A DNA stretch of 64,000 nt, taken from Gammaproteobacteria bacterium. Lineage in GTDB: Bacteria; Pseudomonadota; Gammaproteobacteria; UBA6429; Thiohalophilaceae. Shown here one piece after another: positions 14,044 through 26,151 of the stretch (within the stretch, counting starts at the first letter, position 1; each line of letters opens with the position of its first letter). The stretch is taken from positions 565,911 to 629,910 of the forward strand of contig WGLP01000003.1 in assembly GCA_016125505.1 (NCBI GenBank), in the 5' to 3' direction. The notes under the pieces were generated by a model, which was not told the DNA's origin, searched no databases, and saw only the letters and a program-made list of their open reading frames with translations. Made by a program: the position numbers and the translations under genes.

Positions 14044-15456
14044 TTAGGCAACGTCCAGCTTGTCCACGGTTTCGAATTCAAACTTGATTTCTTTCCAGGT
14101 TTCCATCGCGATGGCCAGTTCCGGACTGTGCTTCGCAGCTTCCGTCAGGATGTCCTTGGCCTCTTTCTCGATCTGGCGACCTTCGTTACGTGCCTTCACA
14201 CTGGCTTCGAGCGCAACCCGGTTGGCGGCGGCGCCTGCGGCGTTACCCCAGGGGTGACCCTGCGTACCACCACCGAACTGCAGCACGGAGTCGTCACCGA
14301 AGATGGTCACCAGCGCCGGCATGTGCCATACGTGAATACCACCGGAAGCGACGGCGAAGACGCCAGGCAGTGAACCCCAATCCTGATCGAAGAACACGCC
14401 GCGTGAACGATCTTCAGGGACAAACGATTCGCGCAACTGATCCACGAAGCCCAGGGTGGAATTGCGATCACCTTCGAGCTTACCGACAACCGTACCGGTA
14501 TGCAGATGGTCACCACCGGACAGACGCAGACACTTGGCCAGTACGCGGAAGTGGATACCGTGCTTCGGATGGCGGTCGATTACCGCGTGCATGGCACGGT
14601 GAATGTGCAACAGCATGCCGTTCTTGCGACACCAGTTCGCCAGACCCGTGTTAGCGGTGAAACCGCCGGTGAGGAAGTCGTGCATGATGATCGGGCAACC
14701 GACTTCTTTGGCGAATTCCGCACGCTCATACATATCTTCCGGCGTGGCGGCGGTAACGTTCAGGTAGTGACCTTTACGTTCACCGGTCTCTTGTTCGGCC
14801 TTGGAGATAGCTTCGGCAACAAACTCGAAACGATCGCGCCAGCGCATGAATGGCTGCGAGTTAACGTTCTCGTCGTCCTTGGTCAGGTCCAGACCGCCGC
14901 GCAGACATTCATATACTGCACGACCGTAGTTCTTGGCGGACAGACCGAGTTTCGGTTTGATGGTGGCGCCCAGCATCGGACGGCCATATTTGTTCAAGCG
15001 ATCACGCTCGACCTGGATACCGGCTGGCGGACCACCGCAGGTCTTGATGTAAGCCATCGGGAAACGGATGTCTTCCAGACGCAGGTGCTTGAGGGCCTTG
15101 AAACCGAATACGTTACCCACCAGCGAGGTCAGTACGTTAACGATGGAACCTTCCTCGAACAGGTCGATAGGATAGGCAACAAAGGCGTAGAATGACTCTG
15201 CGTCACCCGGTACGTCTTCGATGCGATACGCACGGCCTTTGTAATATTCCAGGTCAGTCAGTAATTCTGACCATACGGTACTCCAGGTACCGGTTGAGGA
15301 TTCGGCGGCAACAGCAGCGGCCACTTCTTCACGGGGTACGCCGGGCTGGCCAGTCACCTTGAAACAGGCCAGCAGGTCTGTATCGAGGGGCACATAGTCC
15401 GGGGTCCAGTACTTTTCGCGGTACTCCTTAACACCCGCTTGGTATTGTTTAGCCAT
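14044..15456 (-). CDS. cbbL: RuBisCO large subunit, form IA (carboxysomal)
   Basis: Catalyses carboxylation of ribulose-1,5-bisphosphate. The 470 residues start [21 protein letters not shown]. Active-site parts are complete: Lys167 in TIKPKLGLS (equivalent to spinach Lys175), the carbamylated Lys193 with Asp195 and Glu196 in [11 protein letters not shown], and later HIHRAMHAV and [10 protein letters not shown]. It is the first gene of the minus-strand cso operon and should be the most strongly translated; an AGGAG-type site precedes the ATG. CbbQ/CbbO-type activase genes are not in the window. Confidence 0.98.
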
Positions 15457-15796
15457 GATCTACTCCTGATTCTATTTGGGAAAAACGGTTAAGCGTCTTT
15501 GCGCGTGGAGAGAAGACTACGTCGAGTGCGGAATGCCATACCAATCGAAGTTTTATTGATTTCTCATTGATAAAACTCTATGACTATTCCGCCTGACCAT
15601 CAGCATTGCCTATCAACGCGAATTCCGGCGAAAAATTCAGCGGATCAGGGTGAATATCGTGTGTGTGCGGGGTAGATCGGGAATTTCGGCCTGTTTCAAT
15701 AGACTGCTATCTATGAAAACCCATCGTTTTTCAAATTATCAGACGGCAGTCCCTCACCTGTAGAATCGGCACATCAAATTACAGGTAATCCGTTTA
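15457..15796. promoter_or_regulatory. Divergent control region between cbbL operon and csoS1D
   Basis: This 340-base gap separates two outward-facing carboxysome transcripts and holds no gene. It should contain both promoters and the CbbR binding sites. The only strong signal is the dyad described separately at 15549-15577. The half nearest csoS1D (about 15640-15790) is AT-richer, with TTTTTCAAATTATC, but I see no confident -35/-10 pair. Confidence 0.6.
15549..15577. promoter_or_regulatory. Candidate CbbR operator (dyad upstream of cbbL)
   Basis: AGTTTTAT (15549-15556) and ATAAAACT (15570-15577) form an 8-base perfect inverted repeat with a 13-base centre that itself contains T-N11-A-type spacing, the usual shape of a LysR-family site. 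It lies about 95-120 bases upstream of the cbbL start, where CbbR boxes are expected. It could serve both divergent transcripts. Binding is inferred from shape and place. Confidence 0.55.
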
Positions 15797-16438
15797 ATGA
15801 ACATGTCGAGTTACACGCAAGGCCGGATGAAGCTGCGGACCTATGTCTATATCGACTCGCTGCAACCGCAGCTGGCCGAATACATGGCGACCGTGTCGCA
15901 AGGCTTTCCACCGGTGCCGGGCGACGCCTGTCTGTGGGTGGAAGTCTCACCCGGTATGGCCGTGCATCGCGTTACCGACATTGCACTCAAGGCCACACAG
16001 GTGCACCTGACGCAAAAGATCGTGGAACGCGAATACGGCTCGATGGTAATCCATCATCGCGATCAAAGCGATGTGATCTCCGCCGGCCAGACTCTGTTGA
16101 GCAGAATGAATGCCAGCGTGGAAGATCGCGCACAACCCAAAGTGGCCTGGACCGAAACCATTCGAGGCATGAGTCCGGAACACTGCGTGTTGATCAATCG
16201 CCAGAACCGCATGGGTTCCATGATCCTGCCCGAACAAAGCATGTTTATTCTGGAAACCGAACCCGCGGGCTATATCGTGTATGCCGCAAACCAGGCCGAA
16301 AAGGCCGCAAACATCACCTTGATCGATGTGCGTGCGGTCGGTGCCTACGGCCGCCTACTCGTGTCCGGCCGCGAGGCCGATGTGGATGAAGCCGCCGCGG
16401 CGGCGATTGCGGCCGTCGAGAATCCATCCCGGACCTAG
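15797..16438 (+). CDS. csoS1D: Tandem-BMC carboxysome shell protein CsoS1D
   Basis: A 213-residue protein with two BMC-like domains. The halves are recognisable from [20 protein letters not shown] through [20 protein letters not shown], and from [17 protein letters not shown] through [20 protein letters not shown]. CsoS1D forms trimers, often stacked in pairs, with a large gated pore thought to pass RuBP and phosphoglycerate. It is usually found downstream in the cso operon; here it is divergent from cbbL and shares the control region. It is followed after two bases by a NUDIX gene, so the two are co-transcribed. Confidence 0.88.
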
Positions 16439-16440
16439 TC

Positions 16441-17019
16441 ATGCATCGCAACGACCTGCTCAATCTGCTAAAAGGCTACCACACCCGCTTCATGGATGAG
16501 GTCGCCTACGTCCGACGCGCCATCGATCTGATCAGGCGCGACGAACACGTGTTTGAACGCGCGCGGCCCATGCATGTCACCGCCTCCACCTGGGTGGTTA
16601 GCCCCGATCGCGAACAGGTCCTGCTGATGCACCACCGTAAATACGGCCACTGGTTTCAACCGGGCGGTCACGCCGATGGCGATCCGGATGTGTTACGTGT
16701 GGCCTTACGCGAATGCGCGGAAGAGACCGGCGTGGACCCTGCGCACATCAAGCTGATCGACCCGGCAGTGTTTGATGTCGATATTCACTCCGTGCCTACC
16801 GTGGGTGAGGTAGCCGGCCACGATCATGTCGATATCCGCTTCGTGGTTGAGATCGATGATAGTCTGGAAATTCCGGGGAATAATGAGTCGCACGCCGTCG
16901 AGTGGTTCCCGCTGCACGAGGTCATGCACTACAACAACTTCCGCTCCACCTACCGCATGCTGGAGAAGACCCGCGCCCTGCGCAATCCGGTGAATGTGCT
17001 GCGTCAGCGAAGCGCCTGA
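16441..17019 (+). CDS. NUDIX hydrolase co-transcribed with csoS1D
   Basis: A 192-residue NUDIX protein. The NUDIX box (G-x5-E-x7-REUxEExGU) is visible at about residues 79-101 as GHADGDPDVLRVALREC then AEETGV, although the box glutamate after G-x5 is replaced by Asp. An N-terminal helical part of about 40 residues precedes the domain. Only two bases separate it from csoS1D. The family hydrolyses nucleoside diphosphate-linked compounds; the substrate is unknown here. The link to the carboxysome, for example removal of a damaged cofactor or an inhibitor, is inferred only from co-transcription. Its last codons are copied 2.7 kb downstream. Confidence 0.85.
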   Translation: MHRNDLLNLLKGYHTRFMDEVAYVRRAIDLIRRDEHVFERARPMHVTASTWVVSPDREQVLLMHHRKYGHWFQPGGHADGDPDVLRVALRECAEETGVDPAHIKLIDPAVFDVDIHSVPTVGEVAGHDHVDIRFVVEIDDSLEIPGNNESHAVEWFPLHEVMHYNNFRSTYRMLEKTRALRNPVNVLRQRSA

Positions 17020-17023
17020 CGCC
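16962..17023 (+). repeat. 62-bp direct repeat, copy 1 (3' end of NUDIX gene)
   Basis: This stretch covers the last 19 codons and stop of the NUDIX gene. It recurs in the same orientation at 19645-19706 with three mismatches. The identical block around CTGCGCAATCCGGTGAATGT is too long to be chance. Confidence 0.92.
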
Positions 17024-17103
17024 CGACACATCGCAATACCTTCATGCAGATTGTCTTATTACTCGAAGCCTCATTACCGAGAACCAATCATTGCCACCGT
17101 TGT

Positions 17104-18012
17104 TCATGGCCCGGGCTTCATCGCTGAGTCATAGACAACAACCTTGTTTCGACCCTCGGATTTCGCAACGTAGAGTGCTGCGTCCGCATGCTTTATCAGA
17201 TTCGACACTGATTCCCGGGCCTCAAAGCAGGAGAATCCAATTGAGACGGTTAATTTTATGTCGGCATTTTCGAATCGAATGGATAGCTGGCTTATCCCTT
17301 CACGGATACGCTCCAAGATTTTAAATGAGATGTCTCGGGTGCTGTTAGGCAGCAAAATAAGAAATTCTTCGCCGCCATAACGACTGATACTGTCCGAATC
17401 TCTTAATGTGGAAGACAAGTATCGCGACAATGCTTTAAGCACTTCGTCCCCACCCAAATGACCGTGTGTGTCGTTTATGGATTTGAAGAAATCTATGTCC
17501 AACATCGCGATGGCATAGGGCGAATTGTACCGCAATGACTGGGCGTGGTTTTTTTCAAGAATCAGGCGAATGGATTTTCTGTTGATCAGCCCTGTAAGCG
17601 GGTCAAAAGAATGTTGCTGACCGATGATGCCGTCACGCAAACTGACCAGCAGCTTCATTAATTCCTGTTGCTTTTCTGAAAGACGGCGGTATTTACTCAA
17701 TTCGACTTCATTGAAACTCTGAAAGGCCTCGACCAACTCCCTGGCTTCATCGTGCATCGTTTTATGCGAGGCCTCTAAAGCCTTGAATTCAGGATTTGAA
17801 TGAATGGCGTCGCCCGCCTCCCCATAATACCAGCGGCCTAACTGGCATTTGGTATGTGCAGCGGGATGAATAATTGTTTCCAGAAAAGGCTGTTTGCAAA
17901 GCAGGCCTTCATGTAACTGAATATACCAGTTGAGATGATTTTCGATTGCCTGATTCAGCACGCTCAACGCATCGTCTATCTCTTTGGAAGAAAAACTATA
18001 GCGATCGGTCAT
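17104..18012 (-). CDS. Diguanylate cyclase with zinc-sensing CZB domain (DgcZ-like)
   Basis: Makes the second messenger c-di-GMP from two GTP. The N-terminal CZB domain has the zinc ligands His26, Cys56 (in TKCQLGRW), His83 and His87, matching E. coli DgcZ (YdeH), where zinc inhibits the enzyme. The C-terminal GGDEF domain has the active GGEEF motif at residues 213-217 and an intact inhibitory RxxD site (RDSD, 204-207). With 302 residues and this layout it is very likely a cytosolic zinc-responsive cyclase. It sits alone on the minus strand inside the segment bounded by the 62-bp repeats. Confidence 0.9.
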   Translation of the reverse strand: MTDRYSFSSKEIDDALSVLNQAIENHLNWYIQLHEGLLCKQPFLETIIHPAAHTKCQLGRWYYGEAGDAIHSNPEFKALEASHKTMHDEARELVEAFQSFNEVELSKYRRLSEKQQELMKLLVSLRDGIIGQQHSFDPLTGLINRKSIRLILEKNHAQSLRYNSPYAIAMLDIDFFKSINDTHGHLGGDEVLKALSRYLSSTLRDSDSISRYGGEEFLILLPNSTRDISFKILERIREGISQLSIRFENADIKLTVSIGFSCFEARESVSNLIKHADAALYVAKSEGRNKVVVYDSAMKPGP

Positions 18013-18367
18013 CAGACTCTTACCAGATTTTTTTCATTGCCAATGAAATCGCATAACGATAACAGGTATTATCTGGACCCCGATATCAAACTGCATCCAG
18101 AATTAACCATAGTCCATTCCCTGAGCTTTGCCTATTTTTATCCGGACCCGCATTTGCGGGTTGCGGCCGTGAGTGGCCCCCCTAAATTAATGGCGGAGTG
18201 AGCGATTTTTCGGTAGATTCGAGATGACGGTGTCGTCGATTCGAGACGAGGAGAACAAGAGTGCCACAGCATCCGGTGTATTCAGCCCCTCACGCAGCGA
18301 AGTCTGCTTCTCGCTGCGAAATCAAATTTCTATTCCTCAGATAGTCACCACAATGATAAATACCCAC
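18013..18367. other. Intergenic region between divergent genes
   Basis: This 355-base gap lies between the divergent diguanylate cyclase gene and the periplasmic gene. An open frame extends upstream of the latter to 18224, but that part gives no signal-peptide or domain sequence and was not included. GATTCGAGA occurs twice (near 18216 and 18238). I see no RNA gene or clear promoter. Confidence 0.4.
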
Positions 18368-18940
18368 ATGAAACGAATAACACCGACCCTGCTCAGTCTG
18401 CTCATTGGCATGGGGTCCGGCGGCGCCTATGCGAAAACCCAGGTGACCGTGGAGAAGAATCCCAAAAGCGGAATGCTCAGCTGGACGGCAACTGACGATG
18501 GCCTCAGCATCCAGCTGGTCCAACTGTTACCCGATTTTGTCCGGGCCGTGTACTCCAAGCACGGCCTGCCGGCCAAGCTATATAACGAGATCGCCGGTTA
18601 CTGCGATTTCGGCACCATCTTCAGGAACACCTCCGGCAAAACCCTGGATTACGATGTCCGCGACTGGCGCGCGGTTACCAGCGCGGGTGCGCTTGGCAAA
18701 ATCAAGTCCAAGAGCGAATGGGCCGAGGAATGGCGCAAGGCAGGTATCCATTTCTCCTGGACCCTGTTCCCAGGAGCCGGGACCTTCTACGCAGGTGACT
18801 GGCAACAGGGATTCACCACCATCAAGCTTCCCCACGGCACTCGCTTCGATCTGATACTCAAGTGGAAAATCGACGGCGTGATGCACACCGGCAGAATACA
18901 CAACATGCAATGCGCCTCCGACGTGACGAGTACCCCATGA
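18368..18940 (+). CDS. Exported protein of unknown function, module A with TlpA
   Basis: A 190-residue protein with a signal peptide (MKRITPTLLSLLIGMGSGGAYA). The start at 18368 is chosen because it gives this signal. It can be aligned by eye with the product of 50657-51202: a segment ending in a Cys (here Cys79, GYCDFG), then a short D-x-x-x-W stretch (VRDWRAV), an E-W-x-x-x-W-R helix, FSWTL, and a second Cys close to the C-terminus (Cys182, NMQC). Both relatives are followed directly by a TlpA-type thioredoxin; here the stop overlaps the thioredoxin start (ATGA). The two Cys may form a disulfide handled by that partner. I know no family name for it. Confidence 0.75.
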   Translation: MKRITPTLLSLLIGMGSGGAYAKTQVTVEKNPKSGMLSWTATDDGLSIQLVQLLPDFVRAVYSKHGLPAKLYNEIAGYCDFGTIFRNTSGKTLDYDVRDWRAVTSAGALGKIKSKSEWAEEWRKAGIHFSWTLFPGAGTFYAGDWQQGFTTIKLPHGTRFDLILKWKIDGVMHTGRIHNMQCASDVTSTP

Positions 18941-19473
18941 AACACACACTCCTGATTCTTTGCAATTTCCTGCTCATACTGACGTGCCTGGGCACCGCGC
19001 AGGCGGAACAGCCGCTCGGTCACGACCTCGCGCCTTTGCCCAAGCCGATCCCGGCACCGGCCTTCACACTGCAAGACGGGGACGGCAACCCGGTCAGCCT
19101 GGCCGATTACAAGGGCAAGGTGATCCTTCTCAATTTCTGGGGAACCTGGTGCCCGCCCTGTCGCCAAGAAATGCCTTCAATGGAACGGCTCTACCAACGG
19201 CAGCAGAGCAAGGGGTTCGTGGTGCTCGCCGTCAACCAGACGGAAACCCCCGAAGACGTGTTCATCTATACCGGTCAGCTGTCGGTAACACCTACCTTCA
19301 AGATCCTGTACGACAAGAACAGCGACGTTTCCGCGGAGTATCGGGTTGTCGGTCTGCCCACCACCTTTCTCATCGACAAGAAAGGCATCATCCGTTACCG
19401 CGCGGTCGGCGGCCGCGACTTCGACAGTCCCAAGGTGGAGCAGCAGATCAGCAGCCTGATAAGTGAAAAATAG
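18937..19473 (+). CDS. TlpA-type periplasmic thioredoxin, module A
   Basis: A 178-residue exported thiol-disulfide oxidoreductase. It has a signal peptide (to TAQA), a TlpA/ResA-like fold with active site WCPPC (Cys72, Cys75) and the cis-proline loop GLPTTFLID. TlpA-like proteins normally reduce disulfides of periplasmic client proteins such as apocytochromes or CuA centres. The start is fixed by the ATGA overlap with the upstream unknown exported protein, so that protein is the likely client or partner. The gap after this gene holds the second 62-bp repeat. Confidence 0.9.
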   Translation: MKHTLLILCNFLLILTCLGTAQAEQPLGHDLAPLPKPIPAPAFTLQDGDGNPVSLADYKGKVILLNFWGTWCPPCRQEMPSMERLYQRQQSKGFVVLAVNQTETPEDVFIYTGQLSVTPTFKILYDKNSDVSAEYRVVGLPTTFLIDKKGIIRYRAVGGRDFDSPKVEQQISSLISEK

Positions 19474-19597
19474 CCGGCCGCAAGACTGCTGTCTGTCCGG
19501 TTCCTGTGTAGGCGCGCCGGGTCCTGGCGACGCTGGCAATTTGACTGCTCTGTAAACCCGACAGGAAGAGCGTAATCCAGATAAGAGTCAGAGAGAG

Positions 19598-19624
19598 ATA
19601 TCTTCTAATATTAGAAACAATTGC
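19598..19624. repeat. 27-bp repeat with TTCTAATATTAGAA palindrome, copy 1
   Basis: ATATCTTCTAATATTAGAA followed by ACAATTGC. The core TTCTAATATTAGAA is a perfect 14-base palindrome. The same 27 bases occur at 20534-20560 with one change. Confidence 0.85.
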
Positions 19625-19644
19625 ACACTGATCCGGTTTTTTTC

Positions 19645-19706
19645 GGAGAAGACACGCGCCCTGCGCAATCCGGTGAATGTGCTGCGTCAGCGAATTGCCT
19701 GACGCC
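19645..19706 (+). repeat. 62-bp direct repeat, copy 2 (NUDIX 3'-end remnant)
   Basis: A copy of 16962-17023 (59 of 62 bases), including the former stop codon. No NUDIX coding sequence precedes it, so it is a fragment left by duplication or insertion. Together the two copies bracket 17024-19644. Confidence 0.92.
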
Positions 19707-19750
19707 AGCGTAATTCAAATATCTTTCCGGTTAGCGTTCTAGAGCTATCT

Positions 19751-20464
19751 TCATTGGTACTTAGGCCATTCTTTGTACTTTGATGGGAACAAATTTATCT
19801 CTTCTCTCTTCAAAATATTAAAGATAGCTTGATGTCGAGCATCTTCCGTTCCAATGTTTCGCTTCATAAACTGCAGCAGCCAAGCGTACACATCTGCTAG
19901 CTGCAGAAAGCGGCTGAGGTGCGAATGTGTGAAATGCACAGAATCAACTAAATGGGTTAGATCTCTACCAAACGCAAAATCAGTTCCATTTGCTCTGTAG
20001 CCTGATAGAGTGGTAGCGAACCGTTCTGACATTCGATCGCTCTCGCGATCTCCTATGAGCATACCCAAAGACCTTTTTGCTCTAACGTAATCGTTCGCGC
20101 GCTCACATAGGAACATAAACGCAATCTCTTCAGCAGATTGGTTTTGTGACAAAAGGTCTGTATTGATCTGAATATCTATCAGCGCCACTTCTTCTAGGGA
20201 CAATATTTGAATCAAACGTTCAAGTACGTCAATTCGTCGGGAAAAATCTGTCCAAGCCTTGAAGTTTCTCTTCCGATGATAAATTTCTGCCGCATGAAAT
20301 TCAGTTTCCTTACACATCTCTGATCTGCCAAAAACTTTATTTGCAAGAGCTGATACTTGCATCTCGACTTGATGTAGATGTTCCTCATCTATGCAAATAG
20401 CGCCAATATGATAGTGTGGATATTCCACTTCTGGCTTAACTTCATCGAAAAATATTAGTTTCAT
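19751..20464 (-). CDS. DUF3800 domain protein (cassette gene)
   Basis: A 237-residue protein of the DUF3800 family, predicted to have an RNase H-like fold. Typical signs are the N-terminal strand with acidic residues (LIFFDEVKPE), a central acidic helix pair, a later GDRESDR and the C-terminal LQLADVYAWLL. DUF3800 proteins often sit next to mobile or defence genes, and nuclease activity is suspected but not shown. It is the last gene of the cassette-like run; AACGCTAACC follows its stop, like the start of an attC site. Confidence 0.75.
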   Translation of the reverse strand: MKLIFFDEVKPEVEYPHYHIGAICIDEEHLHQVEMQVSALANKVFGRSEMCKETEFHAAEIYHRKRNFKAWTDFSRRIDVLERLIQILSLEEVALIDIQINTDLLSQNQSAEEIAFMFLCERANDYVRAKRSLGMLIGDRESDRMSERFATTLSGYRANGTDFAFGRDLTHLVDSVHFTHSHLSRFLQLADVYAWLLQFMKRNIGTEDARHQAIFNILKREEINLFPSKYKEWPKYQ

Positions 20465-20482
20465 TTTTTCGATCCATCACGA

Positions 20483-20594
20483 CACTAACTGTTGAATTAA
20501 CGACCCACAGTAGCAAATTAGGTTTAGAGATGAATATCTTCTAATATTAGAAATAATTGCTCTCTGGCCCTACTCTTTTTCCATCGCGTTATAA
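20483..20594 (-). repeat. attC-like junction between DUF3800 and small exported gene
   Basis: Reading in the gene direction, TTATAACGCG near one end and GGGTCGTTAATTCAACAGTTAGTG near the other match the ends of the better sites at 22509-22549 and 21536-21576. The middle is longer and includes the 27-bp palindromic repeat. Confidence 0.45.
20534..20560. repeat. 27-bp repeat with TTCTAATATTAGAA palindrome, copy 2
   Basis: Identical to 19598-19624 apart from one C/T change. Both copies lie in junctions of the cassette-like run. A shorter relative, AATATTAGAGAAAAC, occurs near 21005 and 21070. Confidence 0.85.
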
Positions 20595-20607
20595 ATTTAT
20601 TTGTATG

Positions 20608-20979
20608 TTACTCACGCGGCTCCATCCATCTGTTAACTCTTCCGTTAAAAAACATGACTGTTCCACCATTTCCATAATACCAAGTAGCTAGGTTACCTCC
20701 GTCTACCCGTTGCGGTTCTCCAAGTATTTTTTGAACATCACTAGCGCTCATGTCTGTGGCTAATTTTCTCCAGTTATGAACTGATTTCCAACCTTCATGA
20801 GAAGGTACAAGTACTTTGTTTTCACTTGATTCTCTAAGCAAGGACTCTAGTTTCGATATACGAAGGTTTAGTTCCTGTACCTTTTTCTCTAGCCGATCAA
20901 TTCGATCACTGTCATCTGCATAAGAATTGAAGATGACGCCCAACATCAGAAATCCAATTATGGTAATAGTTCTAATCAT
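20608..20979 (-). CDS. Small exported coiled-coil protein with BamE/OmlA-like domain (cassette gene)
   Basis: A 123-residue protein. The start at 20979 has GAGGGAGATC just upstream and gives a signal peptide (MIRTITIIGFLMLGVIFNSYA); the longer frame to 21069 runs into repeated DNA. A short coiled coil (DRIDRLEKKVQELNLRISKL) is followed by a small domain with MSASDVQKILGEPQRVD and WYYGNGGTVMFFNGRVNRW, the look of SmpA/OmlA-like beta-alpha folds. Function unknown; probably envelope-associated. It sits between two repeat-rich junctions in the cassette-like run. Confidence 0.7.
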   Translation of the reverse strand: MIRTITIIGFLMLGVIFNSYADDSDRIDRLEKKVQELNLRISKLESLLRESSENKVLVPSHEGWKSVHNWRKLATDMSASDVQKILGEPQRVDGGNLATWYYGNGGTVMFFNGRVNRWMEPRE

Positions 20980-21005
20980 GATCTCCCTCGCTTGTAAATA
21001 GTGGC

Positions 21006-21098
21006 ATATTAGAGAAAACTGTGTTCTGACCCCAGTTGTCGGACCCCAGTTGTCGACCCCAGTTGTCATAATATTAGAGAAAACTGTGTTCTTGCCCC
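21006..21098. repeat. Nested short repeats between cassette genes
   Basis: A 28-base unit (ATATTAGAGAAAACTGTGTT then CTGACCCC) at 21006-21033 recurs at 21071-21098 with two changes. Between them GACCCCAGTTGTC occurs three times in tandem (21028-21040, 21042-21054, 21055-21067). GGGGTCAGAACACAG-type sequences are also found beside REP-associated transposases, so this may be a mobile REP-like insertion within a cassette junction. Confidence 0.75.
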
Positions 21099-21102
21099 GG
21101 TT

Positions 21103-21166
21103 TTCTAAAACGCAGCTTTTGAGCGTGCCAATGAGCGTAGCGAATGGCTCAATTTATTTGTTAGAT
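21103..21166 (-). repeat. attC-like site after small membrane-protein gene
   Basis: In gene direction it begins ATCTAAC, a perfect RYYYAAC core overlapping the stop codon of 21161-21517. TTGAGC and GCTCAA arms can pair across the centre. The far end (GCGTTTTAGAA) is a degenerate GTTRRRY. This is one of the better single sites. Confidence 0.5.
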
Positions 21167-21517
21167 TTTACATGGTATGAGTATGTCACCATAACCCCAA
21201 ATAAATGTTCCAAACACCACAGAAAAATGTAATACCTTTAAAAGTATTTGCCTTTGGCGTGGTTGATCTAATGGTCCAACCCCACCTCCTATAGCTCCAG
21301 CGCCTCTTGTGGCTCTTACATTTATTTGTTCCTGCAAATTAACGTTTTGATACTCAGACATGGCACTTAATAAAACCATTATTGAGCCAGAGCGCGCGAA
21401 CCAATCCGCGCGGCCATACTTACAAGCCAAGTACAGCGATACCCCCATAATTAAATAGCTCGCAGCCAATGCAATAATGTCATTCCGTGTTTGTTTATTT
21501 AAATCAAGTCCATACAT
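21161..21517 (-). CDS. Small membrane protein of unknown function (cassette gene)
   Basis: A 118-residue protein with hydrophobic segments at about residues 13-33, 41-55 and 90-112, and a Gly-rich loop (RATRGAGAIGGGVGPLDQP) between them. No family is recognised. Its stop codon lies inside the attC-like core ATCTAAC and its start follows the site at 21536-21576, the compact arrangement expected of a cassette. Confidence 0.55.
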   Translation of the reverse strand: MYGLDLNKQTRNDIIALAASYLIMGVSLYLACKYGRADWFARSGSIMVLLSAMSEYQNVNLQEQINVRATRGAGAIGGGVGPLDQPRQRQILLKVLHFSVVFGTFIWGYGDILIPCKI

Positions 21518-21535
21518 AATTGTTTTCTCTTATAT

Positions 21536-21576
21536 ACCTAATAGTTTTATTAACGAGACCCTATGTCTCGTTATTA
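21536..21576 (-). repeat. attC-like site between cassette genes
   Basis: In gene direction: TAATAACGAGACATAGGG, then TCTCGTTAATAAAACTATTAGGT. TAACGAGA and TCTCGTTA form an 8-base stem. It matches the site at 22509-22549 over most of its 41 bases, although the neighbouring genes are unrelated. Confidence 0.6.
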
Positions 21577-22161
21577 TTTTTTATGTTCAAACGGTCCCAA
21601 TATTGTCGAGCCATCTGGCAACTTGAAGTTTAAGGCGTTTTTATTTATATAACCAAGTATTGCAAAAGACTGTCTAAAAAACGCCACAAACACAGCCAAA
21701 TTACCGCACTCAGAAAACACATAGCGATAAAAAAACTGATCGCTCAAATTTGTATTACAACGCTCTAATTTAGGAAAGTTACTTACTAAGCTGGCAATTT
21801 CATTTGGTAATTCATTATTCTCTATTTGTAAATTTGAGAACCATAATAAAGCTATTCCTGCCTTCTTTGGCAAAATCTCGCCGGTATGTTTATAGTAAAG
21901 CGCAAGAAATAGCTTTCTACCGAAATTTGTTACTGCTTTGTTTACAAGTGGGCCTTTTAGGCTAAGGACTGGTAAATCGGCTGAGCTTTCACCATCTGGT
22001 AAGGTGATGTTGTATTTTTTAACGGCATTTCGTTTTTGACGTAATGTAGGTTGCAATTCTACTAAAATTTCGGGGTAATTATACGCAACAGCCCGAATTC
22101 GTTCTTGTGCTTCTTTTATACCTTTTAACAATCCAATCATGATTGCTCCAATCTGCATCAT
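21574..22161 (-). CDS. Unknown protein overlapping the TIR-like gene (cassette gene)
   Basis: A 195-residue protein; ATG codons at 22161, 22158 and 22140 are possible starts. It has no recognised domain, but a hydrophobic, aromatic C-terminal half (LFLALYYKHTGEILPKK, FFYRYVFSECGNLAVFVAFF) is visible. It overlaps the TIR-like gene by about 80 bases in another frame. If the frames were joined near GATTGTTAAAAGG, the TIR domain would run directly into this protein (DWIVK then GIKEAQERI), so a frameshifted fusion or programmed shift is possible. It may be an effector or partner of the TIR protein. Confidence 0.5.
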   Translation of the reverse strand: MMQIGAIMIGLLKGIKEAQERIRAVAYNYPEILVELQPTLRQKRNAVKKYNITLPDGESSADLPVLSLKGPLVNKAVTNFGRKLFLALYYKHTGEILPKKAGIALLWFSNLQIENNELPNEIASLVSNFPKLERCNTNLSDQFFYRYVFSECGNLAVFVAFFRQSFAILGYINKNALNFKLPDGSTILGPFEHKK

Positions 22162-22510
22162 CTAACAGGATCGGGAATAAGTAGCGATCTACAGAATCAA
22201 TAATGTTATTTATAGCTTTCTCGATATTTGGCGTTACAAAACCTATGTAAAAAGAAGATATTATTGGAATAACAATATTTGCTTCTTCTATAGATTTTCT
22301 AGTGCCCGCTTCATTATCGGGGTCAATATCTGATGAATTATTATCTTCAAGATCACTAAATGTTTTAACGATGTATTGAGCATCAAGTTTCAAATTTAAT
22401 AGTCTTTTCTTTAATTGACTCGCAAATTCCTTATCAAGGTCATGACCAGTGTTGTCGATGAATATCTTAATAACAGATTTTAGTGTCATGAAATTGTCTC
22501 TATTTTCCAT
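22079..22510 (-). CDS. TIR-domain-like protein (cassette gene)
   Basis: A 143-residue protein. Its fold pattern matches TIR domains: strand A KIFIDNTGHD then helix (LDKEFASQLKKRLL), IEEANIVIPIIS as the fourth strand, SFYIGFVTPNIEKAI as the alpha-C region holding the likely catalytic Glu, and RYLFPILLDDADW as the last strand with the common DW ending. Bacterial TIR proteins often degrade NAD+ in phage defence. The first ATG overlaps an attC-like end; MTLKSV at 22489 is an alternative start. The match is by pattern, so NADase activity is unproven. Confidence 0.5.
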   Translation of the reverse strand: MENRDNFMTLKSVIKIFIDNTGHDLDKEFASQLKKRLLNLKLDAQYIVKTFSDLEDNNSSDIDPDNEAGTRKSIEEANIVIPIISSFYIGFVTPNIEKAINNIIDSVDRYLFPILLDDADWSNHDWIVKRYKRSTRTNSGCCV

Positions 22511-22549
22511 CTAACAGTTGAATTAACGAGACCCCATATCTCGTTATAC
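22509..22549 (-). repeat. attC-like site between cassette genes (best conserved)
   Basis: Plus-strand ends are ATCTAAC (perfect RYYYAAC) and GTTATAC (one mismatch to GTTRRRY). Between them are AGTTGAATTAACGAGA and TCTCGTTA, an 8-base inverted repeat. The end AATTCAACTGTTAGATG closely resembles known attC ends. The TIR-like gene starts within it. Confidence 0.6.
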
Positions 22550-22560
22550 ATTTTCCTGTT

Positions 22561-23094
22561 TCACCTATCGAAGACCTCTTCAGCCCTGACTTTGTGCATT
22601 TCTCGGAGGGAGTCTCGAAGCAGTACAACTATGCTAACGACCGTCTTCGGGTACTCATTATCCTTTGGGTTGTTGAGCCACCCAAGGAAGCTTCTAGGAT
22701 CATACGCAGAAATGCGGTTCAGTACTTTCATTGACTCTAATTGAGTCCGAGCTCGGCCGAGTTTTCGATCCTTTACATGAGCAACTACTGTATTTCTGTA
22801 CTCCTTAACGTCAAGCTGATATATCTTCGAGACAAGCTCCTTTACCTGTGGGCGGAACTCCGCTGGGACAACATGATGAAATACTTCCCAAAACTCGCAC
22901 AGTTTGCATAAAGCTAGGACGAGATGCGACACGCACATCTTCTGAACTGATACTATGCCTTCCTTAGAAAATTGCTTACACTCAAATCGTGATTGATAGT
23001 GCTCAAACACCATTGTTCCAGCAACCAAACCATCGGCTAGATCATTCAGGATATTGACGGCATCAAGGATGGTATTTCTGTCGACAACAGTCAT
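22561..23094 (-). CDS. HEPN/AbiU2-like helical protein (cassette gene)
   Basis: A 177-residue, wholly helical protein. At about residues 99-106 it has YRNTVVAHV, an R-x5-H pattern like the catalytic Rx4-6H motif of HEPN RNases, followed by a basic stretch (KDRKLGRARTQ). Such proteins include AbiU2 and other abortive-infection or toxin families that cut RNA. No antitoxin gene is adjacent unless the neighbouring HEPN-like gene plays that part. Assignment rests on the motif and helical pattern only. Confidence 0.45.
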   Translation of the reverse strand: MTVVDRNTILDAVNILNDLADGLVAGTMVFEHYQSRFECKQFSKEGIVSVQKMCVSHLVLALCKLCEFWEVFHHVVPAEFRPQVKELVSKIYQLDVKEYRNTVVAHVKDRKLGRARTQLESMKVLNRISAYDPRSFLGWLNNPKDNEYPKTVVSIVVLLRDSLREMHKVRAEEVFDR

Positions 23095-23104
23095 AATTTA
23101 AGAC

Positions 23105-23173
23105 ACATAACGGTGAGCTGTTGAGCGCAAGCTACCATACGGCGAAGCGTTCCATACGGGCATATTGTTAGCA
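23105..23173 (-). repeat. attC-like site between the two HEPN-like genes
   Basis: In gene direction it starts GCTAACAATATGCCC, overlapping the stop codon, and ends CACCGTTATGT. CGTATGGAACGCTTCG and CGTATGGTAGCTTGCG repeat in its middle. Ends fit the core rule with one mismatch each. Confidence 0.45.
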
Positions 23174-23635
23174 CTTTTTGTTTTTAAGTTCGAAATTGGG
23201 CTCATATATTTTCACCAACGTTTCGATAAATTCTTTTGCTTGTTGAATCACTACATCCGACTCCTCTGGATTACAGAACTCTCCTTGATGTGCTACTGAA
23301 TTGCGCTTCTTATTGATTTTCACAGAAACGTCTTTTAGCTTAGTTACCACTTTATGGTATTTCTCACCTTTAGTTATTGGAATCAATAAGCGATCGACTT
23401 TTCCAGAGATGCCGTTAGCCCAAACCAGAAGAGAATCGACGAACTCTTTACTCAATTTACTTTTTGATTCAAATTCTTTACGTACTGCGAAATTAGCGGC
23501 TAGTTCTGCTGCCGTAGCAGCACGAACAATTGCCGCAGACGATTCATCGCGTGAATGAAGTCCTGTCAGTTTGTTCCATTGGGACTGAACCTTTTCAAGA
23601 TCAGTCCGGTCGACATATGGTTTACGTTTAGACAT
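23168..23635 (-). CDS. HEPN-like helical protein (first cassette gene)
   Basis: A 155-residue helical protein. KKRNSVAHQGEF at about residues 110-121 fits the HEPN R-x4-H motif, followed by a predicted helix (EESDVVIQQAKEFIETLVKIY), as in many HEPN domains whose motif lies before the last helix. It is the first gene of the run and is followed by a second, unrelated HEPN-like gene. HEPN domains are usually RNases in toxin or defence systems; that role is inferred. Confidence 0.5.
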   Translation of the reverse strand: MSKRKPYVDRTDLEKVQSQWNKLTGLHSRDESSAAIVRAATAAELAANFAVRKEFESKSKLSKEFVDSLLVWANGISGKVDRLLIPITKGEKYHKVVTKLKDVSVKINKKRNSVAHQGEFCNPEESDVVIQQAKEFIETLVKIYEPNFELKNKKC

Positions 23636-23646
23636 ATTTTGATGAA

Positions 23647-23684
23647 CGCTAACAGCTGAATTAGCTTGCCCCCCTGTCTCGTTC
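23647..23684 (-). repeat. attC-like end at the upstream edge of the array
   Basis: In gene direction: GAACGAGACAGGGGGG, then CAAGCTAATTCAGCTGTTAGCG, the same layout as the sites at 22509 and 21536. It marks the right border of the cassette-like run, 27 bases or less before the first gene. No attI or integrase is seen between it and purK. Confidence 0.5.
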
Positions 23685-23815
23685 TCACTTTTTATCGGGA
23701 TCTAAATATTTCTAGAAAGTATAGCAATGGATTGATGACCAGGCGATGAAGTGAGATAGGCTAAGCCTGGATCCCTGATAATACCAGGCATTTCTGGCAT
23801 GACGATCGGGAATAT

Positions 23816-24946
23816 TTAGCGTGTACTCAAGGCCTTGCGAATCTGAGCAGCGGTGTCCAGCGCGGCTTCAACATTCTCCGCCAGCACATTGAAGTGGCCC
23901 ATCTTGCGGCCTGGGCGTGCGGCGTGTTTGCCGTATAAATGCAGTTTGGCGTTGGGATTTTGAAACAACTTGTCCCAGGCAGGGTCGCCGCCTTGCCACA
24001 GATCACCCAGCAGGTTGATCATCACGACCGGTGACAACAGACGCGTATCACCCGGTGGCAGGCCGCACAACATCCGCACCTGTTGTTCGAATTGATCGGT
24101 GAGGGAGGCATCCAGCGTATAGTGACCGCTGTTGTGCGGGCGCGGTGCGATCTCGTTGATCAGGAGTTGCTGGTCTTTGGTCAGAAACAATTCCACGGCG
24201 AGCAAGCCGCAGTAGTCGAGCTTCTCCGCCAGCGTGCGCGCCATACTGGTTGCGCGTTCGATGATCTCCGATGTGGTACGTGCCGGCACAATCGAGGTAT
24301 CGAGGATGCCATTGACGTGAATATTTTCCGCCGGTGGATACACGGCGATCTCGCCCTCACTGCTGCGTGCCAACAGTACCGATAATTCCATTTGCAGATC
24401 GACGCGCTCTTCCAGGACACACGGCTTGTTACCTAATTCGGCAAAGGCCGCATGTGCCTGCGCTGCATCGGTAACCGTGCGCTGGCCTTTACCGTCGTAA
24501 CCCAGGGCCGCGGTCTTGAGAATGGCAGGCAGGCGTACTTGTTTCAATGCCGCGTCCAGTTCAGCCGCATTATGTACCGGTTGAAACGGCGCGGTACCCA
24601 GGCCGCAATCACGTATGAAGGTTTTTTCCCGGATGCGATCCTGGGCATATTCCACGGCCTTGGCGCCGGGGCGTACCAGGCATTGCGCCTCCAGTGTACG
24701 CAGGGCCGCGACCGGGACATTTTCGAATTCCGTGGTCACCGCCGCGCAATGCGTTGCGAGATAGGTCAGTGCTTCCGGGTCGGTGTATTCCTTTTGCAGG
24801 TGTTCGTTGGCGAGTGCCGCGGCGGGACTCATGGGGTCGGGGTCCAGCACGATGACCTTGTAACCCATGGTGCGCGCGGCCACGGTGAACATGCGGCCCA
24901 ACTGGCCGCCACCCAGCACTCCGAGTGTTGCTTCCGGCAGGATCAC
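23816..24946 (-). CDS. purK: N5-carboxyaminoimidazole ribonucleotide synthase PurK
   Basis: ATP-grasp enzyme of purine synthesis that joins bicarbonate to AIR, giving N5-CAIR. The 376 residues start with the dinucleotide-like [12 protein letters not shown]; the ATP-grasp parts include [23 protein letters not shown] and [15 protein letters not shown]. Its start overlaps the purE stop by four bases, the classic purE-purK pair. Use of bicarbonate links it loosely to the carbon pump nearby, but purEK is common and the neighbourhood is probably chance. Confidence 0.96.
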
Positions 24947-25437
24947 GATTTGGGCGGGAGTTGCATATCCAGCACCGACTGGTGCTGAGCCTCGCGAAAG
25001 GCATCGAGCCTGTCGGCCAGTGCCTTGTCCGATTCCGCCAGCATCGCCGCCGCGAACAGTGCCGCGTTGGCGGCGCCGGCCTCACCGATGGCGAAGGTCG
25101 CCACGGGAATACCCTTGGGCATTTGCACGATGGACAACAGTGAATCCATTCCCTTCAGATAACGGGAAGGCACCGGCACGCCCAGGACCGGCAAGGTGGT
25201 CTTGGCGGCCAGCATGCCGGGTAAATGTGCAGCACCACCCGCGCCGGCGATGATGCAGGCCAGACCGCGCTCGCGGGCGGTTTGGGCATATTCAAACAGG
25301 CGATCCGGGGTGCGATGCGCAGAGACGACCTTGGCCTCATAGGGAATCTTGAGCTTGTCCAGCATCTGGGCCGCGGCCTCCATGACCGACCAGTCACTGT
25401 TGCTGCCCATCACCAATCCAACGCGGGGTGCTGTCAT
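24943..25437 (-). CDS. purE: N5-CAIR mutase PurE
   Basis: Rearranges N5-CAIR to CAIR in purine synthesis. The 164-residue class I PurE shows [33 protein letters not shown] (with the catalytic His), [17 protein letters not shown] and [20 protein letters not shown]. It is the first gene of the purE-purK operon, with ATG at 25437. Confidence 0.97.
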
Positions 25438-25535
25438 GTTGTGTCGTACCGTGTAGGTGGAGAGACGCTTATTTTAGCATTTCCACTGGCGGGAAGTGAG
25501 TGTTAAGACCTCTGAACCTTAGGTAAAGACACTGA

Positions 25536-25739
25536 TTAACGCTGCTCCGGTGGCAGCGCCATCTTGCCGAATTGGGCGAGTGCGGCGCGGCGTTCCCGCG
25601 CCTGGCGGCGGACCACGCCCACGGTGTGTTTCAGCTCCGCGGCGGCCGCATTGGCCTCTTCAACGGTTGCGGCCTTGCGTGCCTGCTCGGGCGCAGAGGC
25701 AAACTGCGGCTTGTGCGCCTCCGTAATATCGTCAGCCAT
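25536..25739 (-). CDS. Small conserved-looking protein of unknown function
   Basis: A 67-residue, soluble, Ala/Arg-rich helical protein (KAATVEEANAAAAELKHTVGVV, RRQARERRAAL). GGAGAACAGGATC in front of the ATG supports translation. It lies 85 bases after the PII-like gene of the dab operon on the same strand and could be its last gene. No family recognised. Confidence 0.55.
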   Translation of the reverse strand: MADDITEAHKPQFASAPEQARKAATVEEANAAAAELKHTVGVVRRQARERRAALAQFGKMALPPEQR

Positions 25740-25824
25740 GATCCTGTTCTCCTTGCCGTGGTCAACAGCGGCGTAAATGCCTCCCCCGTCCGTACCGACT
25801 CAAGCCCAAGCTGAAACCGACTGC

Positions 25825-26151
25825 CTAACTGCGAAACTTCACCATGCGCGTGACCTGGATCTCCGAAATAAACACCACGCCGGAGTGTTCGTTATAAAAC
25901 GGCGCGAGCCCTTCCAGGATGGGTTTCACCAGGTCTTCGGGCACGGCAGCCACGATCATGATCAGGACATCGTCTTCATTGAACATGAGGTGGCCTTCAT
26001 GAAAGCCATGACTGCCCTTGCCCGACAGGTTATTGAAGATCGTATAACCCTTGACGCCGGCGCGATCGAGGATGTCGGTGGCGAAGGCCTGGTGTTCGCC
26101 TTCGAGAATGATTTCGAGTTTTTTAAGCGGGCTGAAATTGAGATTCTTCAT
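25825..26151 (-). CDS. PII-like regulator of the DAB carbon pump (CPII type)
   Basis: A 108-residue protein with the beta-alpha-beta repeat of PII signal proteins (KLEIILEGEHQAFATDILDR, VLIMIVAAVPEDLVKPIL, GVVFISEIQVTRMV) and a short loop in place of the canonical uridylylated T-loop. PII-like proteins beside carboxysome or bicarbonate-uptake genes bind adenine nucleotides and bicarbonate (CPII of Thiomonas; SbtB). Its ATG overlaps the dabA stop (ATGA), so it is translated with the pump and likely adjusts its activity. Identification: family by sequence, role by context. Confidence 0.8.
   Translation of the reverse strand: MKNLNFSPLKKLEIILEGEHQAFATDILDRAGVKGYTIFNNLSGKGSHGFHEGHLMFNEDDVLIMIVAAVPEDLVKPILEGLAPFYNEHSGVVFISEIQVTRMVKFRS

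Follow-up and report, generated by a model that had tools for sequence, protein, structure and literature searches.

Clusters of attC sites lacking integron integrases (CALINs) are arrays of gene cassettes that lie apart from any integrase gene. Excerpts of two published studies describe CALINs remote from an integron, mobilisation of cassettes in trans and insertion at attG sites (PMC12444791, PMC12901181). For the attC site, a hairpin with the order R''-L''-L'-R', an excerpt of a further study gives a length range of 57–142 nt (PMC2727003). Here, we analysed a 64,000 nt stretch of DNA, referred to as the window, from a member of the family Thiohalophilaceae (Gammaproteobacteria; assembly GCA_016125505.1, contig WGLP01000003.1, positions 565,911 to 629,910). 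The window is part of contig C6 of a genome of 4.16 Mb in 23 contigs. It harbours an array of seven small genes, most probably a decaying CALIN whose cassettes were likely placed by an integrase acting from elsewhere. This kind of element is already known; the 51-nt attC variant found at its junctions is apparently new.

The seven open reading frames (ORFs), designated g7 to g1 in reading order, are all located on the minus strand between positions 19751 and 23635. The array is bounded by purK (minus strand, 23816–24946) and by a thioredoxin-like gene on the plus strand, which ends at 19473. Its G + C content is 39.3% (19738–23650), compared to 56.0% for the window outside of 19001–24000. The genes are of cassette type, lie on one strand and are mostly arranged as one gene per site, with the overlapping genes g5 and g4 as the exception. 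An initial annotation made from the sequence letters had described seven AT-rich minus-strand genes forming a CALIN-type array. The gene count, strand and base composition were confirmed, and the assignment as a CALIN is supported, by way of a short attC-like variant and a worn classical attC instead of intact classical attC sites.

Each short site is 51 nt long and starts with a YTAA box, from which 8 nt lead to an 8-bp stem (AACGAGAC/GTCTCGTT) enclosing a loop of 5 nt; a further 10 nt separate the stem from a GTTA core resembling the R' box. A covariance model of these sites (R2) was built from a gap-free alignment (A2) of 22 sites from 19 loci, all outside of this genome. Among 23 stretches with short sites, L105 was omitted because the end of its contig falls within the site, L081 and L089 because they fell outside of the collecting pattern, and L077, L079, L088 and L091 because they are the same contigs as L108, L098, L103 and L106, respectively. 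The top three R2 matches in the 64 kb (62.3, 61.6 and 23.5 bits) are all on the minus strand and located at junctions or at the edge of the array. The next matches reached 17.6 bits, the opposite-strand shadow of a site, and 15.8 bits. When searched genome-wide, the two intact sites keep E values near 1e-10. The edge site next to purK obtained an E value of 0.61, and its assignment therefore rests on its place as well.

A further copy at the g2/g1 junction is split into a 5' half (20581–20604) and a 3' half (20483–20506). When the two halves of the site were scanned separately, the three R2 sites and this split copy took the top four ranks of the window, both for the 5' half and for the 3' half; each half of the split copy ranked third. 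The scores of the split halves (18.7 and 19.8) are close to the best of 30 array shuffles (18.7 and 19.1; mean best 8.8 and 5.9); the edge-site halves (16.4 and 14.0) score below the best shuffle. Thus, the split copy and the edge site rest on order, strand and place, and the edge site also on its R2 match. The R' box of the A2 sites contains GTTA in 21 of the 22 cases and follows the strict form GTTRRRY in seven. In the window, the corresponding boxes read GTTAGAT, ATTAGGT and GTTAGCG. Several classical attC sites used for training also deviate from the strict R' box.

The same 51-nt sequence was found elsewhere. Allowing up to three mismatches, it is present in 11 of 369 genomes of the class, including the genome studied here, and on 11 contigs of named genomes, three of them labelled Ectothiorhodospiraceae; the latter set overlaps with the list of class genomes. 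Within the family, at least eight of 40 genomes (own genome included) contain a 51-nt site at E ≤ 0.001. In the own genome, sites outside of the window are located at C6:957k, C6:958k and C12:111k. When 22 loci with a 51-nt site were scanned with a model of classical attC sites (R1, see below), 15 yielded classical attC sites at E ≤ 0.01, and these were on the same strand as the 51-nt site in 15 of 15 loci (27 of 27 rows). Since two attC sites of L108, the contig of L077, had been used to train R1, this locus was set aside, leaving 14 of 14. The other seven loci yielded no classical attC at this threshold, some of them being short or cut by contig ends. The 22 loci are not all independent: L085, L092 and L095 originate from genome G082, and L100 and L101 from a single metagenome-assembled genome.

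The placement of the sites was examined in maps of ten loci (including L080 of the own genome), with ORFs called mechanically. The 13 51-nt sites in these maps are mostly located between ORFs and overlap them by at most 6 nt. In L108, the order is attC, gene, attC, gene, 51-nt site, gene, attC. A less tidy placement was seen in L092, in which the nearest upstream ORF runs in the opposite direction. In the related genome G008, an integron integrase (IntI) and five classical attC sites, one of which is a training site, are accompanied 0.55 kb further on by a 51-nt site (39.7 bits) on the strand of the array. In viral contigs, no exact copy of a 21-nt piece of the 51-nt site was found. A text search of the literature with two pieces of the sequence gave no integron paper, judged by title, among the matches listed, which is weak evidence of novelty because sequences are seldom printed. 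Based on these results, we regard the 51-nt sites as a likely attC variant. At L009 6222–6758 and L080 1536–2549, we also observed cassette genes whose last codons are read from the attC itself (ends LLQPTPKSGAAE and SLQSTPKSGAAEL).

The covariance model R1 was built from attC sites of IntI-linked and other arrays of related genomes. From 34 candidates, 26 were aligned (A1); the AT-rich candidate L072:2264–2382 looked false and was left out, as were seven more for a small set. The paired positions of R1 covary (0.325 compared to 0.127 after shuffling, with none of 500 shuffles reaching this value), and the attC sites of the genome's own IntI array score 33.9, 38.1 and 39.9 bits. At E ≤ 10, the model gave only two matches in the window (8.9 and 8.6 bits), both inside of the array. 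The stronger one reflects a 51-nt site read on the plus strand, and the weaker one lies at the g7/g6 junction. The g3/g2 junction contains 54 nt with 83% identity to a classical attC (L077:694–773) of the family member G026 (E 1.7e-10), with repeats in place of the L'-R' part. At positions 21006–21105, in the place of the 3' part of the g3 attC, we observed two copies of a 35-nt repeat (GAGAAAACTGTGTTCTGACCCC type), which are separated by short tandem pieces. Counting the 51-nt variant and the truncated classical attC, the array has the attC sites expected of a CALIN; by the classical model alone it does not.

The check by an attC covariance model proposed in the initial annotation, when performed with R1, called none of the junctions. 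The claim of related short sites at the junctions holds for the three R2 matches and the split copy; the sites are of mixed kind, however, and none is present between g5 and g4. A home-made motif scanner for classical attC sites gave a single match in the array at a threshold of 9, compared to 2.65 expected from shuffles, and was discarded for this purpose as performing at chance level. The same scanner had recovered the three attC sites of the own IntI array and was then used to gather training sites. Searching positions 15000–26000 against Rfam gave no family at E ≤ 1.

A genome-wide search with TIGR02249 identified one IntI above the cut-off (452.8 bits, cut-off 265) on contig C2, with three classical attC sites upstream. 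None of the 11 TIGR02249 matches listed for the genome falls in the window, and no integron integrase was found near the array. Counted from its first ATG, the IntI (L009 8051–9448) has 465 aa, with approximately 150 residues preceding the TIGR02249 match; similarly long open frames occur in many members of the family. From our reading of the ORFs, the IntI array contains an IS3-type element. Sites of the attC or 51-nt type were found at eight further places (C5:62-63k, C6:94-96k, C6:682-684k, C6:888-890k, C6:957-958k, C12:111-113k, C21:60k and C21:76-77k). Together with the window, this results in nine places away from IntI, of which C21:60k has just one site. Contig C6 itself carries five of these places, so that the estimated contamination of 5.72% cannot account for all of them. 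In the whole-genome model searches, 150 of 1137 and 150 of 837 candidates were scored (148 per genome in the family survey), and the genome-wide R1 results lack one attC of the IntI array of this genome; the numbers of places and genomes are therefore to be read as minimum values. Classical attC sites at seven further places in the genome were recorded as L165–L171. Two 51-nt sites (56.1 and 43.0 bits) mark a second small array (L046 6892–8136; G000:C6:957k-958k), which lies near a XerC-type recombinase gene on the same contig.

In 25 of 40 family genomes, own genome included, a purK match was obtained. The purK loci of the other family genomes, 25 in number, contained none of the seven array genes within flanks of up to 1.5 kb on each side. 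One genome is represented twice among these loci, five contain a distant purK (35–44% identity) and several are cut by contig ends. Within these short flanks, genes conserved in the same order, which the initial annotation had named as an argument against a cassette array, were thus not seen. The coordinates of the array features are summarised in Table 1.

Table 1 Genes, junction sites and edges of the array in the window, listed in reading order of the minus strand
Feature	Position	Strand	Evidence
g7/purK side: degenerate 51-nt attC-like site, upstream array edge	23647..23697	-	R2 23.5 bits, E 0.0093 in the 64 kb
g7, 155 aa, protein with predicted HEPN fold, R111-N112...H116	23168..23635	-	
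g7/g6 junction: weak classical attC	23105..23173	-	R1 8.6 bits, E 8.9
g6, HEPN protein of Vpc_cass2 (integron-cassette) kind, 177 aa, R100-N101...H106	22561..23094	-	
g6/g5 junction: intact 51-nt attC-like site	22509..22559	-	R2 61.6 bits, E 1.4e-12
g5, TIR-like gene 5' remnant, 143 aa	22079..22510	-	Comparison with P0002
g4, probable 3' remnant of another gene, overlaps g5	21574..22161	-	Two plasmid relatives
g4/g3 junction: intact 51-nt attC-like site	21536..21586	-	R2 62.3 bits, E 9e-13
g3, small unknown protein, 118 aa	21161..21517	-	Distant relative in G024
g3/g2 junction: 5' two thirds of classical attC, then repeats	21111..21164	-	Identity to L077:694-773
g2, small protein, 123 aa, weak BamE-like stretch	20608..20979	-	PF04355 22.0 bits, cut-off 23.2
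g2/g1 junction: 51-nt attC-like site split by ~76 nt hairpin repeat	20483..20604	-	Half-site scans
g1, DUF3800 protein, 237 aa	19751..20464	-	PF12686 57.3 bits, cut-off 21
Downstream edge: copy of NUDIX gene 3' end	19645..19706	+	59/62 identical to 16962-17023

Signs of damage in the array include the TIR-like gene running into a second gene, the split site, the truncated attC and the degenerate edge site. Past g1, the sequence runs into the NUDIX-end copy, the counterpart of which lies on the same strand in a NUDIX gene (16441–17019). Between the two copies lie 2.6 kb with the thioredoxin-like gene and a gene for a GGDEF protein. Two copies (74%) of a palindromic repeat with TTTCTAATATTAGAA at its centre were found at 19578–19643 and 20514–20579, the latter splitting the g2/g1 site. 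As a candidate for a genome-wide repeat this hairpin was dismissed: its 20-nt core has two exact copies, both in this region, and one elsewhere with two mismatches. The neighbours on the low side of the array include genes for the RuBisCO large subunit, CsoS2, CsoSCA and a BMC protein, which confirms the adjacent carboxysome locus noted before.

The genes g6 and g7 most likely represent intact, well-conserved HEPN genes. Across 57 members of the g6 family, R100 is invariant and N101 and H106 are conserved in at least 90%; across 40 members of the g7 family, R111 and N112 are invariant and H116 is conserved in at least 90%. Both proteins contain the Rx4-6H motif and show a HEPN fold in structure prediction. 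Relatives of g7 were found in 12 plasmid regions. Two of these were examined, one of which is located beside a Qat system and the other within approximately 4 kb of TIR and TrlF genes. On a Paraburkholderia plasmid (L116 3995–4462), a g7 relative was observed directly adjoining the Qat anti-phage system. In the g7 family, 28 of 40 members match a CARF-HEPN defence model, albeit weakly. A comparison of plasmid DNA with the window gave short pieces of g7 in two records only, and neither viral contigs nor plasmids yielded a relative of g6. Sites were searched for in seven loci that contain relatives of g4, g6 or g7 (L113–L119), and R1 detected two attC sites in L114 (29.9 and 18.8 bits), behind which the g7 relative of this locus is situated. 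Since six of the seven loci are without attC at E ≤ 0.05, relatives of g4, g6 and g7 also travel outside of arrays.

The product of g1 matches PF12686 over profile positions 1–148 of 149 and well above the cut-off (Table 1); no match was found in plasmids and none of note in the PDB. For g2, an export signal is possible as read from its sequence. In the related genome G024 (L043), the first cassette next to IntI encodes a distant relative of g3 (32% identity over 76 aa, E 2e-6). The TIR profile match of g5 reached 19.1 bits, compared to the Pfam cut-off of 28, and falls short of a complete domain. P0002 (238 aa) was the single relative of g5 found, being one of two among nine candidates, with g5 itself as the other. 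It is 56% identical to g5 up to K129 and unrelated beyond. In P0002, which is longer than g5, the TIR-like N-terminal part is followed by a second TIR stretch, which covers only profile positions 1–51 of 122. P0002 is known from one contig of 963 bases and showed no match to g4. For g4, two plasmid relatives (26–28% identity) are coding sequences of 266 and 270 aa, which are matched from their residue 90–93 on. The overlapping genes g5 and g4, without a site between them, both look truncated, and the simplest reading of their sequences is that two cassettes were fused by a deletion. As a 5' remnant below the Pfam cut-off, g5 probably no longer yields an active TIR effector.

Regarding the gene contents proposed in the initial annotation, the DUF3800 gene is supported, as are the two HEPN-like products by their conserved R-N...H motifs, their predicted folds and the sequence match of g6 to Vpc_cass2, an integron cassette protein of solved structure. 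The TIR-like gene stands as a TIR-like 5' remnant, not as a complete gene; it is shorter than its relative P0002.

Several observations weigh against the interpretation as a CALIN with attC-type sites. The length of 51 nt lies below the attC range, and the 51-nt consensus ends with TAAA, not with the AAC of an R'' box (RYYYAAC). The L stem in A2 has no extrahelical base, its 8 bp being paired in 99.4% of cells without gap or bulge, and it is nearly invariant and gives no covariation signal. Three variable R''/R' positions pair no better than after shuffling (36 of 66 compared to 33.7, p 0.31). R1 gives the 51-nt site of the true array L077 just 8.8 bits (E 6.7), and its unfiltered search of the 64-kb window gave no significant match. 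In the loci L113–L119 other than L114, R1 found nothing under E 0.3, and R2 gave no match in all seven. No empty site beside purK was found in the relatives; they keep purE-purK, and none of the window genes was detected on the array side of purK within the flanks of up to 1.5 kb. Furthermore, g6 (21.6 bits, cut-off 25) and g7 (18.6 bits, cut-off 28.4), like g5, do not reach their curated Pfam cut-offs, and the defence role is drawn from fold and motif. A near-invariant 8-bp stem without covariation or bulges and an R'' box off consensus would also fit if the 51-nt hairpins were terminators, or a mobile hairpin repeat favouring cassette ends, instead of recombination sites; on the strand opposite to the array, the consensus has five T, 5 nt past the stem, which would allow a terminator role on that strand. 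However, the stem has no T-run behind it on the array strand, the sites end in the GTTA core of the R' box, occupy attC positions in mapped arrays and are found on the array strand in all judgeable loci, making this explanation very improbable. The decay and the edge rearrangement would fit a relic of an integron which lost its own intI at this locus by deletion. We consider this unlikely, since a whole-genome search at E ≤ 0.001 revealed no intI fragment at the locus, and the nine places with attC away from IntI would each require a lost intI.

We prefer the interpretation as a decaying CALIN. An integrase encoded elsewhere, e.g. the IntI on contig C2, would deliver cassettes in trans and would recombine the 51-nt sites as attC. 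Entry may have occurred at non-classical genomic (attG) sites, and such entry in trans fits the attC sites at nine places away from IntI. A deletion would account for the fusion of g5 and g4. The HEPN proteins g6 and g7 are predicted to be metal-independent RNases that would likely serve defence. Upon a trigger, they would cut host or phage RNA and arrest growth, and thereby the damage done by phage or other stress; no activity would be expected of the TIR remnant. More tentatively, and in our view less likely than not, the 51-nt sites may constitute a separate class of working attC: minimal bulge-free hairpins used by gammaproteobacterial integrases and invisible to classical models, the cassettes behind which would be missed in surveys. 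Having no bulges that mark the strand, such sites could be recombinable on either strand, allowing IntI to insert cassettes in both orientations or to seed the remote clusters observed in this genome.

Integrons have been put forward as stores of defence genes, which makes the same suggestion for this array plausible. However, the matches to PADLOC models were only weak and no NCBIfam model exceeded its cut-off with the array proteins. There is, in our view, a considerable chance, if short of an even one, that the array is real and its genes do not serve defence, with the HEPN proteins being toxins or stress RNases for maintenance and the rest being unrelated. The weak PADLOC matches and the lack of defence features in g2 and g3 are in line with this explanation, as is stress dormancy, proposed for HEPN proteins of integron cassettes in an excerpt of a published study (PMC3710099). 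The g7 relatives near Qat, TIR and TrlF genes, in the two plasmid regions examined of 12, and the weak matches of the g7 family to the CARF-HEPN defence model argue against it.

The 51-nt attC variant and the many attC places in this genome are worth following. If the 51-nt sites are working attC, the number of cassettes in environmental gammaproteobacteria may be underestimated by surveys that use classical models. A natural bulge-free attC would then allow a direct test of what marks the strand cut by IntI. With attC sites at nine places away from a single IntI, the genome offers a natural case for the exit of cassettes from the integron platform. It also contributes two well-conserved HEPN families to those cassette genes for which tests of phage defence are worthwhile.

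Compared to known systems, g7 shares its predicted fold and an RNxxxH motif with the HEPN RNases Csx1/Csm6 and HepT, but is without a CARF domain; a nucleotidyltransferase gene was not seen among the genes of the array. The protein g6 resembles Vpc_cass2 (PDB 3jrt; PF18867 HEPN-like_int) in predicted fold, R-N...H motif, profile match (E 9.1e-11) and location in a cassette, although the aligned identity is 16% and the Pfam cut-off is not reached. The 51-nt sites differ from attC in their shorter length, the 5-nt loop, the L stem without an extrahelical base and the longer spacers (8 and 10 nt). They resemble attC in the R'-like GTTA 3' end, the R''-like YTAA 5' end, the inner stem, the position at junctions and the orientation. 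As a whole, the array deviates from a typical CALIN in that most sites are of the 51-nt variant missed by R1 and several are split or truncated, while it shares with CALINs several cassette-type genes that lie on one strand and are separated by recombination-type sites, an integrase-free neighbourhood and an IntI integron elsewhere in the genome.

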